Of a stretch of DNA of 64,000 nucleotides, positions 40,637 through 59,628 are shown one piece after another. A program made the translations under genes and the position numbers. Source of the DNA: an uncultured Candidatus Melainabacteria bacterium (lineage in GTDB: Bacteria; Cyanobacteriota; Vampirovibrionia; Gastranaerophilales; Gastranaerophilaceae); contig CANOTP010000002.1 in assembly GCA_947570135.1 (NCBI GenBank), forward strand, positions 124,001-188,000, written 5' to 3'. How positions within the stretch are numbered: the first letter of the stretch is position 1; each line of letters opens with the position of its first letter. A model generated the notes under the pieces. That model saw only the letters and a program-made list of their open reading frames with translations. It was not told the DNA's origin and did no database searches.

Positions 40637-41221
40637 TCAATACTGAATTTTACGTGGATAATCGTTAGGAATTTTCCACCCGTTATTTTTGATTATAGCC
40701 GTGCAATATTCGCCTGATGTTTTGCAATTGTATAAACCTTTTGAGTATAATCCCTGTTTGCTCCCGTCCCAGTAATGTAAGTATACTTCCAGTCCTTTGC
40801 CATAATGGTATTTCCATTTTGGTTCAGGACCCATCGGATAAAATATAAAAGAAAATTCACAAATTCCCTTACGATTGGTACGTGCCATGCATTTTTCGGC
40901 ATCTTTCGGATAAAAGAATACGTCACGAATAAAGGATTTACTAAAGGCAAAAGCACTTCCGTCCGGCAGTACATATAATATTTTATCTTTTAATTTTTTC
41001 TTATGCATAATTTTCATGTAAGGCTCTAAATATTTACCAAAACATGTTTCTATATTATTAGAATAGTCTCCACCAATAACGGTGTTACCTGTAATCCAAT
41101 ATTCATTCCAGCCTTCGGGTTTACCGTTTTCGACAGTGGATAGCCGTATTGCCTGATTAAACATTGAATAGAATTTTTCCAGTCTTGTTTCGGTGATTTT
41201 CTTATTGTAACTGTTAATGTT
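40637..41221 (-). pseudogene. Type IV pilin-like gene lacking its 5' end (pair 1)
   Basis: An open frame of 175 codons from ATG 41164 reads as the globular part of the pilin-like proteins in this window (GLEVYLHYWDGSKQGLY, a late-Cys pair, DGSAFAFSKS). The same frame extends upstream through NINSYNKKITETRLEKFYS to an in-frame TAG near 41224; this is the pilin stalk that normally follows FTLAEVLITLGIIGVVAAMTIPTL. So the signal/helix-coding 5' end is missing. A truncated XRE gene lies divergently ~120 bases away. The ATG at 41164 is internal and has no ribosome site, so a functional product is unlikely. Confidence 0.75.
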
Positions 41222-41346
41222 CTACCGTGCGATTATGTATATATGCAATATAAAAGTCATAAAACTTTACATTAAATAAAGAGTTTGGGCGTGTAATAAA
41301 CAGGTTTCGGGTCGGTAAAGATAAGAAAAAGTCACGGTTGTAGTTT

Positions 41347-41520
41347 TGTTATGAATATGATTTGGACGCGGGAAATTTGTCACGGATAGAAAACGGATTG
41401 ATTGATCCTAAGTTATCCATGCTTTGGAGAATTTCTGAGGAGCTTGAGATTCCGCTTTCAGAGATTTTTAAAACACTTGAAAAAGATTTGGGTCAAAATT
41501 TTAATTTGTTAGATAAATGA
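41347..41520 (+). pseudogene. XRE regulator remnant lacking its 5' end (pair 1)
   Basis: The frame reads YEYDLDAGNLSRIENGLIDP then KLSMLWRISEELEIPLSEIF to a TGA at 41518-41520, the recognition helix and C-terminus of an XRE protein. An in-frame TAG occurs at about 41342, only a few codons upstream, so HTH helices 1-2 are absent. Too short for start-to-stop calling. It faces away from the pilin fragment, as in the intact pairs. Confidence 0.7.
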
Positions 41521-52054: not shown

Positions 52055-52580
52055 TATAGTTTTACTTGGAATAGCTTTAGGTATAGATTGTCTTGTGGTG
52101 TCTTTTTCGCAAGGATTGATATTTAACTGTAATCGAATGAAAAATTCAATCAAACTTGCAATAGTTATGGGTTTGTTTCAAGGTTTGATGCCTGTAATCG
52201 GGTATGTTGGAACAAATTCGTTGTATGATTTTTTAGTTCCGTTTAGTAAATGGATAGTTTTTGGGATATTTTTTATCCTCGGTGCAAAATTTATCGCAGA
52301 AGCCTTTAATCCAAAAGAAGAGAGCATTCAGTGTATCGGATTAAAGTGTCTTATCGGACTTGGGGTTGCAACAAGTATTGACGCGCTTGTTTCAGGTGCA
52401 ACATTAAGGCTTACGGGTACGAATCTTTTAATTGCCTGTATCATAATTGGGATTGCGTCTTTTGTAATGTCTGTTATCGGTTTTTGGAGCGGAAATTTTG
52501 TTAAAAATATGCCTTCAAAATACCTTGAAATCACAGGCGGAGTGATTTTAATCCTGCTTGCCGTTAAAGCTGTTATTTAA
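52041..52580 (+). CDS. mntP: MntP-type putative manganese efflux pump
   Basis: 179 residues, six predicted helices. LGIALGIDCLVVSFSQGL and GVATSIDALVSGATL are the two paired Asp-containing motifs of the MntP/DUF204 family, in both halves of the inverted-repeat fold. TTG start with GAGGT upstream, overlapping the DUF4127 gene by 14 bases (translational coupling). It exports Mn2+ by family analogy. Its 3' end overlaps the pilin gene by eight bases. Confidence 0.88.
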   Translation: MNLIDIVLLGIALGIDCLVVSFSQGLIFNCNRMKNSIKLAIVMGLFQGLMPVIGYVGTNSLYDFLVPFSKWIVFGIFFILGAKFIAEAFNPKEESIQCIGLKCLIGLGVATSIDALVSGATLRLTGTNLLIACIIIGIASFVMSVIGFWSGNFVKNMPSKYLEITGGVILILLAVKAVI

Positions 52581-53238
52581 CGTTTTTTACAACCCATTTG
52601 AAATAATCTGTTTCGGTTTTGGCTTTATGCGCGCAGGCTATTCCGTTAAGTGTGTCGTTGGACTTTATGTTGCAGTATTTTTCTATATCTGTAAATACTG
52701 TATTTCGGCTTCCCATAGTTGTCAGAATGCCTTCTTCATACTGGAATGTAAACAGGTCATATCCGAATTTGTTTGGCGGATTATTGTATCCGTTTAAATA
52801 AATGGAAATCCAAGTTTTATTGGTAACATCTTCCAAAAATATTAAACTGCCATCAGGCAATAATATTTGACCGTCATCAAGAATTCTGGAACCTTGCCAA
52901 GTAAGAGATGAATCTGCACCTGAAAAAGTTTTATATAAATCAATTATTGACTTATTAAAACACTTACTGCCGTTTGTTCCACAATAAGTTGCTCCGTTAA
53001 AATATCCCATAATTGTTTTATAGTTGGTTCTGGTAGATTTCATATCTAAAAGTACCCCGTCATCTTCCATTTGACGAAAAGCCTGTTGGATTACAGAATA
53101 AGATTTCAAAAACTGTGAACGCAGACGGTGGGCTTTTTGAGTCATGATTAAATTTGGAATAGTAATCGCTGCAACTATACCTATTATGCCAAGGGTGATT
53201 AATACCTCAGCTAATGTGAAACCTACTTTATGTGTCAA
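52573..53238 (-). CDS. Type IV pilin-like protein (pair 3)
   Basis: 221 residues. VGFTLAEVLITLGIIGIVAA at 5-24 is a prepilin signal: G6 would be the last leader residue, cleaved before F7, leaving the N-terminal helix with Glu5 of the mature protein (E11). ITIPNLI and SQFLKSYSVIQQAFRQ follow. The globular part has PDGSLIFLEDV, ISIYLNGYNNPPNKFGYDLF and paired cysteines. TTG start (53238-53236) with weak AAGAG upstream; no ATG fits. The gene lies divergently from an XRE regulator with operators between. Probably a minor pilin or pseudopilin; assembly partners may be the Pil genes at the window's right edge. Confidence 0.88.
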   Translation of the reverse strand: MTHKVGFTLAEVLITLGIIGIVAAITIPNLIMTQKAHRLRSQFLKSYSVIQQAFRQMEDDGVLLDMKSTRTNYKTIMGYFNGATYCGTNGSKCFNKSIIDLYKTFSGADSSLTWQGSRILDDGQILLPDGSLIFLEDVTNKTWISIYLNGYNNPPNKFGYDLFTFQYEEGILTTMGSRNTVFTDIEKYCNIKSNDTLNGIACAHKAKTETDYFKWVVKNVK

Positions 53239-53377: not shown

Positions 53378-53617
53378 ATGGGTATAAAAACGGCGTTAGG
53401 GTTAAAGATTAAAGAACTTAGAAAGAGAGAAAAGATTTCTCAGGAGAAGTTTTCCGAGATGGTTGAAATGAATCCGCGCCAAATTGTAAGAATTGAGAAC
53501 GGGGAAAGTTTTCCGACTGCTGAAAATTTGGAGAAAATCGCATCAGCACTTAATGTCACACCTCAGGAATTATTTTATAACGAAACTTATAAATCGGATG
53601 AATTTCTAAAAAACTAG
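53378..53617 (+). CDS. XRE-family regulator paired with pilin (pair 3)
   Basis: 79 residues. HTH: GLKIKELRKREKISQEKFSE, MNPRQIVRIENGESFPTAENLEKI, then ALNVTPQELF. Nothing beyond the HTH except a short tail, so no ligand domain. GAGGTGAATGT before ATG. -10 TATAAT at 53340-53345 with an AAGACA-like -35, overlapped by one direct repeat. It probably binds the intergenic repeats and controls itself and the pilin. Confidence 0.88.
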   Translation: MGIKTALGLKIKELRKREKISQEKFSEMVEMNPRQIVRIENGESFPTAENLEKIASALNVTPQELFYNETYKSDEFLKN

Positions 53618-58575: not shown

Positions 58576-58576
58576 T

Positions 58577-58801
58577 TTATTTTTCTAATTCTGTAAATGT
58601 TGAAAAGAATTCTGCAATTGAAATCCCAAAACCTTTGCAGATAGCCTCAACGGTAGATAATCTTATATCTCGTTGAGCTTTTTCGGCATATGTAATACAG
58701 CTTTTCGATAAATCCGAATACCAGGCAAGTTTTTCTGCTGTCAGGTGCTTTTGTGTTCTTAACTCTTTAATTCTTGCCGATATTTTTTCATTAATATTCA
58801 T
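58577..58801 (-). CDS. XRE-family regulator paired with pilin (pair 4)
   Basis: 74 residues. HTH: ISARIKELRTQKHLTAEKLA, WYSDLSKSCITYAEKAQRDI, then STVEAICKGFGISIAEFF. Only the HTH is present. GAGGTATC lies before ATG, and one of the TTGATAC half-sites overlaps that ribosome site, suggesting self-regulation. Divergent from the pilin gene at 58900. It ends two bases after the convergent neighbour. Confidence 0.88.
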   Translation of the reverse strand: MNINEKISARIKELRTQKHLTAEKLAWYSDLSKSCITYAEKAQRDIRLSTVEAICKGFGISIAEFFSTFTELEK

Positions 58802-58805
58802 TATG

Positions 58806-58882
58806 TTGATACCTCTATGTTAATACCTTGACTTTAGTATCAATATTAAGTATATTAATTAACAATGTTAGTATTAACATTG
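58806..58882. promoter_or_regulatory. Operator region of pair 4 with pilin promoter
   Basis: Half-sites TTGATAC (58806-58812), TTAATAC (58820-58826), GTATCAA (58837-58843) and GTATTAA (58871-58877), two each way; the last is part of a perfect palindrome CAATGTTA-GTAT-TAACATTG (58863-58882). The + strand promoter TTGACT (58828-58833), N17, TATATT (58851-58856) carries one half-site in its spacer and one directly upstream of its -35, so binding should affect pilin transcription. Confidence 0.65.
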
Positions 58883-58899
58883 TGAACATGGAGGCTTGA

Positions 58900-59574
58900 A
58901 TGACCGAAAAGATTTTTACTCGCACCTTGAAGGGTTTTACTCTTGCAGAGGTATTGATTACGCTTGGAATTATAGGTGTTGTTGCTGCAGTAACAATCCC
59001 TAACTTAATACAAAAGAATTTTGAAAGACGTGTTATCTCAACGTTAAAAGAAACTCAGTCAATACTTGCTCAAGCTTTCAGGTTATCCCAAGAAGAATAC
59101 GGTGAAGTTGAAGGTTGGGGACTTGTTCAATATTCAGGTGAATCAGCATCGCTTATTGCTAATAATTTAAGACCGTTTATGAAAATCTCATTGGATTGCG
59201 GGCTTAATGATACAAATAGAAGATGTGTTCAAGGTACGTATTTAATGTTAAACGGAGAAAAGTATAATATTGATTATGCAACTGCTAGTAATTATTATAA
59301 AATTGCACTATTAAACGGAAGTTCAATATGGTGGAGAGCAGCTCAAGAAAATGATGCTTTAATCTATTTTTGGATATATATAAACGGCAAACAGCTTCCA
59401 AATACTTTTGGTAAAGATTTGTTTATGTTTTCATATTCAAACGGCAATGTTGTACCAAATGGTTCGCCATTTTCATCACATGATGCAAGACAACATTGTA
59501 TAAAAGGTAAAAGTACAGGCTGGGGTTGTGCTTATTACGTTATTGTTCAAGGTAATATGAATTATTTACATTAA
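58900..59574 (+). CDS. Type IV pilin-like protein (pair 4)
   Basis: 224 residues. KGFTLAEVLITLGIIGVVAA at 11-30: prepilin peptidase cleavage after G12. VTIPNLIQK and LAQAFRLSQEEYGEVEGWG follow. Globular part: RCVQGTYLMLNGEKYNIDYA, PNTFGKDLFMF and cysteines near 64, 72, 204-214. ATG with GGAGGC seven bases upstream. Divergently paired with the XRE gene at 58577. Shares the (P)N-x-FG-x-D-(L/V)-F motif with the pair 3 pilin. Confidence 0.9.
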   Translation: MTEKIFTRTLKGFTLAEVLITLGIIGVVAAVTIPNLIQKNFERRVISTLKETQSILAQAFRLSQEEYGEVEGWGLVQYSGESASLIANNLRPFMKISLDCGLNDTNRRCVQGTYLMLNGEKYNIDYATASNYYKIALLNGSSIWWRAAQENDALIYFWIYINGKQLPNTFGKDLFMFSYSNGNVVPNGSPFSSHDARQHCIKGKSTGWGCAYYVIVQGNMNYLH

Positions 59575-59628
59575 AATGCCTGACAAATTTAAATATGATA
59601 TAATATATTTAAATATTTGGAGGATATT

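Follow-up and report, generated by a model that had tools for sequence, protein, structure and literature searches.

A conserved half-site array between divergent genes for a small XRE regulator and a type IV pilin-like protein in Gastranaerophilales

Described systems and the XRE/pilin locus

The closest described systems are the controller (C) proteins of restriction-modification systems, which bind dyads in which a 4-bp alternating spacer is flanked by 3-bp boxes, at three operators that differ greatly in affinity (PMC3758141). The XRE regulator analysed here, encoded in a 64-kb stretch of DNA that we call the window, shares fold and size with the controller proteins C.Esp1396I, C.BclI and C.AhdI, and in both cases several operators, putative ones here, lie at the promoters under control and differ in symmetry. 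Two of the sites in the window, S3 (TTA-GTAT-CAA) and S4 (TTA-GTAT-TAA), are near-perfect ten-base dyads that fit the 3-4-3 geometry of C-protein operators in the form TTR-RTAY-YAA, whereas S1 and S2 fit it on one side only, having the left half without a good right half. Nevertheless, the window sites carry TTR/YAA boxes and follow a 14-bp step, in contrast to the GAC/GTC of C-protein sites, and C proteins are encoded together with restriction and methylation genes, whereas the XRE of the window has no such neighbours and its putative target is a pilin. We judged that this XRE would work like a controller protein, but did not class it as one because no restriction or methylation gene adjoins.

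A second comparison is offered by the XRE-DUF397 systems of Streptomyces (whiJ/bldB-type), for which many paralogous pairs of an XRE and a partner per genome are described (PMC6262351, PMC10364602, PMC10294661). Many paralogous pairs are likewise found in the genome of the window. The Streptomyces partner is a small DUF397 protein encoded downstream of the XRE, unlike the divergent surface protein found here, and the function lies in antibiotic production and development, unlike that of pilin cassettes.

Streptococcal Rgg-SHP systems also come as several paralogous pairs, each of a helix-turn-helix regulator and a small target gene beside it, as here, but Rgg has a large peptide-binding domain and its target is a pheromone, whereas the window XRE consists of the HTH domain only. 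Phage repressors and immunity-type XRE proteins are small autoregulated HTH proteins with overlapping divergent promoters and several operators, an arrangement that we also propose for this locus; such switches differ in their output, which here would be a pilin.

The features of the locus, in window positions, are the following.

58576-59628: cassette of XRE gene, gap and pilin gene, between the gene of a 309-aa protein and a carbonic-anhydrase-like gene
58577-58801, minus strand: XRE/HTH_3 regulator of 74 aa (HTH_3, 34.6 bits; orthologs 53-93% identical)
58806-58813, plus strand: S1, TTGATACC, containing half-site 1, TTGATAC (58806-58812); one-sided putative operator half, TTRRTACC kept in 23 gaps
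58812-58815, minus strand: XRE Shine-Dalgarno sequence, GAGG, its edge overlapped by S1
58820-58827, plus strand: S2, TTAATACC, containing half-site 2, TTAATAC (58820-58826); abuts the pilin -35, TTRRTACC kept in 23 gaps with fixed spacing
58828-58833, plus strand: pilin promoter -35, TTGACT, with TTGAC nearly invariant in 23 gaps
58834-58843, minus strand: S3, TTAGTATCAA, containing half-site 3, GTATCAA (58837-58843); near-perfect 10-bp dyad in the -35/-10 spacer, conserved as TTARTAYYAA
58849-58877, minus strand: candidate XRE promoter, TTAATA-N17-TATACT (9/12 consensus match, a weak call)
58851-58856, plus strand: pilin promoter -10, TATATT, after a 17-bp spacer; T, A and final T invariant in 23 gaps
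58859-58865 and 58880-58886: outer arms TTMACAA and TTGTKAA, inverted and symmetric about S4 (conserved columns 58859-58863 and 58880-58887)
58868-58877, minus strand: S4, TTAGTATTAA, containing half-site 4, GTATTAA (58871-58877); 10-bp dyad at the predicted pilin transcript start
58900-59574, plus strand: type IV pilin-like protein of 224 aa with the N-terminal methylation motif GFTLAEVLITLG (N_methyl 23.4 bits, TIGR02532 23.4 bits)

The best PDB match of an AlphaFold2 model of the XRE, computed as a monomer (pLDDT 88), was C.Esp1396I (TM 0.84, 32% identity). C.Esp1396I, C.BclI and C.AhdI were the nearest proteins by both fold and sequence, and by these best matches the monomer model has the single-domain HTH fold of the C-protein type. 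A type II toxin-antitoxin reading (HipB/Y4mF) was rejected, as the XRE scored far under the cut-offs of the curated antitoxin families (28.1 of 71.65 bits for TIGR03070 and 12.1 of 79 for HipB). In the divergent protein, the prepilin cleavage/methylation motif was present, with PF07963 and TIGR02532 both above cut-off; its model shows a long N-terminal helix and a beta domain, and gave no significant PDB match in a fold search.

The genes flanking the cassette encode the 309-aa protein, which has no assigned family, and the carbonic-anhydrase-like protein; no endonuclease or methyltransferase and no phage gene was found among the immediate neighbours. At the same site the cassette is also present in two other loci (L114 and L116) and absent from three (L153, L156 and L161), where the flanking genes are adjacent, and no obvious direct repeats mark the empty sites as insertion footprints. 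The earlier note on this DNA had labelled the locus pair 4. An XRE/pilin pair does lie at 58801/58900, but the numbering could not be matched, the window containing two clear divergent pairs (53238/53378 and 58801/58900) and one decayed. The other clear pair (52573-53238, minus strand, and 53378-53617, plus strand) has a gap that repeats GCAAAAATTTGTC and overlaps promoter-like sequence, and a pilin fragment at 40637-41466, together with the partial XRE match that it faces (G000:C2:165377-165466), appears to be what is left of a decayed cassette.

Half-sites and promoters in the gap

The intergenic gap (58802-58899) comprises 98 bp. The four TTRATAC half-sites that the earlier note had reported within 72 bases are all present, at 58806-58877. 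This is the sole 72-base stretch of the 64-kb window with four copies, the runner-up, with three, being a sub-window of the same cluster, while the motif in total is not enriched in the window (35 found vs 28.7 expected). Without a preset motif, 0.4% of dinucleotide-shuffled gaps and about 1% of randomly drawn 98-base windows contained some 7-mer with one degenerate position in four non-overlapping copies. Single-sequence statistics for the cluster are therefore only moderate, and the strong evidence is its cross-species conservation.

The predicted pilin promoter, TTGACT-N17-TATATT, is near consensus (10 of 12 positions, 17-bp spacer). The earlier description of two half-sites at or inside this promoter was right, because S2 ends 1-2 bases before the -35 and S3 lies within the spacer. 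As to the half-site said to cover the ribosome site of the XRE gene, S1 follows the start codon of that gene (58799-58801) in window coordinates, before the Shine-Dalgarno sequence, and overlaps the edge of the latter. TTAATA-N17-TATACT is the only minus-strand promoter candidate in the gap, and it overlaps the pilin promoter; its TTAATA is supplied by S4 and ranks best among candidates for the XRE -35. The starts of S1, S2 and S3 (58806, 58820 and 58834) follow the 14-bp step, which is tight for neighbouring dimers, so that all four sites may not fill together.

Conservation of the array and recurrence of the cassette

A genome scan yielded 26 loci with relatives of the XRE, most of them in records named Gastranaerophilales or Melainabacteria, and three close XRE orthologs were taken from genomes of the same genus. 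Using the window as identity reference, 23 orthologous gaps from Gastranaerophilales genomes were aligned. The four sites and their spacing were kept in this alignment, and the gaps were 71-93% identical to the window with the exception of L140 (66%), where the array ends after S3. In the corresponding XRE genes, identity at fourfold synonymous sites was mostly 20-60% (7-71% overall, with few sites each). In most of these genomes another pilin stands opposite, with 21-37% identity once the conserved N-terminus is set aside, and it is sometimes truncated. The array is also kept opposite a gene for a 63-aa LuxR-type protein (L145) and opposite another gene without Pfam match (L148), and in L151, where the XRE is 53% identical, all four sites are kept, no pilin was found and a PilT-like gene lies further on. 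Because orthologous XREs keep the array while the opposite pilin is unrelated, broken or replaced, the array of putative operators follows the XRE and not the pilin. In two distant homologs (L117 and L118), neither a pilin nor a matching array was seen in the gaps. As a side observation, both XRE orthologs without an adjoining pilin, L151 and L140, lie near a PilT-like ATPase gene (Pfam T2SSE for that of L151).

The S1-S2 tandem has a single exact occurrence in the genome of the window, and near-matches are no commoner than those of a reversed control. TTRATAC as a regulon-wide motif was thus ruled out, being unenriched in the window and its S1-S2 tandem unique in the genome.

Site 4 had also been placed in a perfect 8+8 palindrome. 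This palindrome, CAATGTTA-GTAT-TAACATTG (58863-58882, 4-nt spacer), is present in the window, but as a conserved feature it failed: its right half-site is nearly invariant in the orthologs and its left arm is variable. The palindrome was rejected as a functional unit because the left arm is not conserved in orthologous gaps; by the alignment, the conserved feature is the half-site array. The outer arms, centred on 58872.5, make up, in the window, a compound dyad of 28 bp (58859-58886).

Family searches of the 1.9-Mb genome gave 79 HTH_3 and 119 N_methyl matches, and the pairing statistics rest on the coordinates of these matches. Forty-five of the 79 XREs are divergent from a pilin match within 300 bases, against a mean of 1.4 and a maximum of 8 under random placement (1000 trials), and no tandem or convergent XRE/pilin pair within 1 kb was found in this genome. 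A short or broken pilin frame is present in 12 of the 45 cassettes, three of which have a shortened XRE too. Among the matches listed, XREs facing a pilin numbered 26 of 60 and 17 of 42 in two other genomes of the genus, and 0 of 28 and 0 of 11 in two genomes of the order that belong to other families.

Within the genome of the window the converse was seen: the five closest paralogs of the window's pilin (41-53% identical beyond residue 45) face XREs only 25-32% identical to that of the window, and over 496 cassette pairs the XRE and pilin identities are uncorrelated (rho 0.02, P 0.64). The 40 usable cassette gaps contain 340 internal 7-mer repeat pairs vs 163 +/- 20 in shuffles, with a within-gap rate about twice the between-gap rate, and upstream of 28 pilin genes that lack an XRE the count was 85 pairs vs 67 +/- 12 shuffled, not clearly in excess. 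In a second cassette, whose XRE (at C1:152162) is unrelated in sequence, four TACGTA sites recur with constant spacing across 10 orthologous gaps, and the pilins again change. As repeats are individually significant in only 14 of the 40 gaps, private putative operators are shown for the cassette set and for two cassettes, and not for each singly.

Two further observations concern other pilin genes of this genome. In one cassette gap (C9:72175, L026), a long palindrome around AATACCTCCTTGTTCTAATATTAGAACAAGGAGGTATT would bury the pilin ribosome-binding site. In 11 of 28 sampled XRE-less pilins, located outside the window (L092, L105, L038, L033, L037, L049, L046, L042, L041, L039 and L100), a G7-G9 tract follows a conserved leader (ATGAAAAA...GCGGGGGGGGTAACT) and the frame runs into a stop; the tract occurs in none of the 45 XRE cassettes. 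A search with the leader pattern found 27 tracts of 7 to 9 G in this genome, 15 in G055, 2 in G001 and 1 in G060, the 27 copies all being on the contig forward strand and several of them at contig ends. These poly-G pilins without XRE look like phase-variable pilins.

Proposed switch, alternatives and biological meaning

The overall best explanation, to which we give a probability of roughly 0.7, is that the gap serves the adjacent XRE, a controller-protein- or phage-repressor-like regulator, as a compact operator region, and that the cassette is one of about 45. XRE dimers would bind the four sites, with S3 and S4 as strong dyads and S1 and S2 as weaker one-sided sites, and the bound sites would span two overlapping divergent promoters. 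Occupancy of S3 and S4 would shut RNA polymerase out of the pilin promoter, and S4, S3 and S1 would keep in check the promoter and ribosome site of the XRE gene itself, making the regulator self-limiting. Pilin would thus stay low until some signal or a drop in regulator releases repression. The earlier note's proposal that the XRE controls both itself and the pilin stands as a prediction, and is the most likely reading given the conservation of the array with the XRE, the overlapping promoters and the controller-type fold. Repression is the more probable sign of pilin control, because the pilin promoter is near consensus and covered by S3. The notion of an isolated, self-contained switch did not hold, since about 45 such cassettes, this one included, are found in the genome, and in most of them the regulators are unrelated and the repeats differ.

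An unlikely alternative is that, in the two-stage manner of restriction-modification controller proteins, the XRE activates the pilin gene at low level, when bound to S2 behind the -35, and represses it only at high level. In every ortholog S2 abuts the -35 and S3 overlaps the promoter core, and the nearest solved relatives are controller proteins that both activate and repress (PMC3115060); nevertheless, a promoter so close to consensus should need no activator. We regard as improbable that the gap is conserved for its promoters and for another DNA-binding factor, the XRE not being the main binder. The outer arms would suit such a factor, as they are conserved to the same degree as the sites and do not match the half-site motif, but the array tracks XRE orthology even where the pilin is missing and the XRE has diverged as far as in L151, it has no second copy in the genome, and another XRE has, in the equivalent position, an array of another kind. 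That the palindrome acts as a hairpin in the pilin mRNA leader controlling translation is very improbable: in the window it does precede the pilin ribosome site GGAGG and lie close to the predicted start of transcription, yet the outer left arm is partly before that start, and it is the right half-site, not the left arm, that the orthologs preserve.

What carries the operator reading is the conservation across species together with the recurrence of the architecture, and we infer binding by the XRE, repression as the sign of control, autoregulation, the independence of the switches and their biological purpose. On this operator reading, evolution would preserve the regulator-plus-operator unit, with the pilin behind it exchangeable. 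The cassettes appear mostly to have their own unrelated regulator and repeats; therefore, single pilins could in principle be switched independently.

Our literature search found no description of a divergent XRE/pilin expansion (tens of cassettes with regulator and operator kept and the surface protein swapped), and nothing relevant on pilins or XRE regulators of Gastranaerophilales. A single autoregulated XRE switch is, by contrast, ordinary. We suggest tentatively, at not quite even odds, that one gut Gastranaerophilales genus may carry dozens of independent regulator-operator switches in front of exchangeable pilins, which would allow cells to display combinations of pilins, with further XRE-less pilins bearing phase-variable-looking poly-G tracts. 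The cassettes would amount to a naturally occurring set of small repressors with their operators, perhaps orthogonal to one another, and they provide a testable idea about surface variation in an uncultured gut bacterium that is a non-photosynthetic relative of the cyanobacteria.
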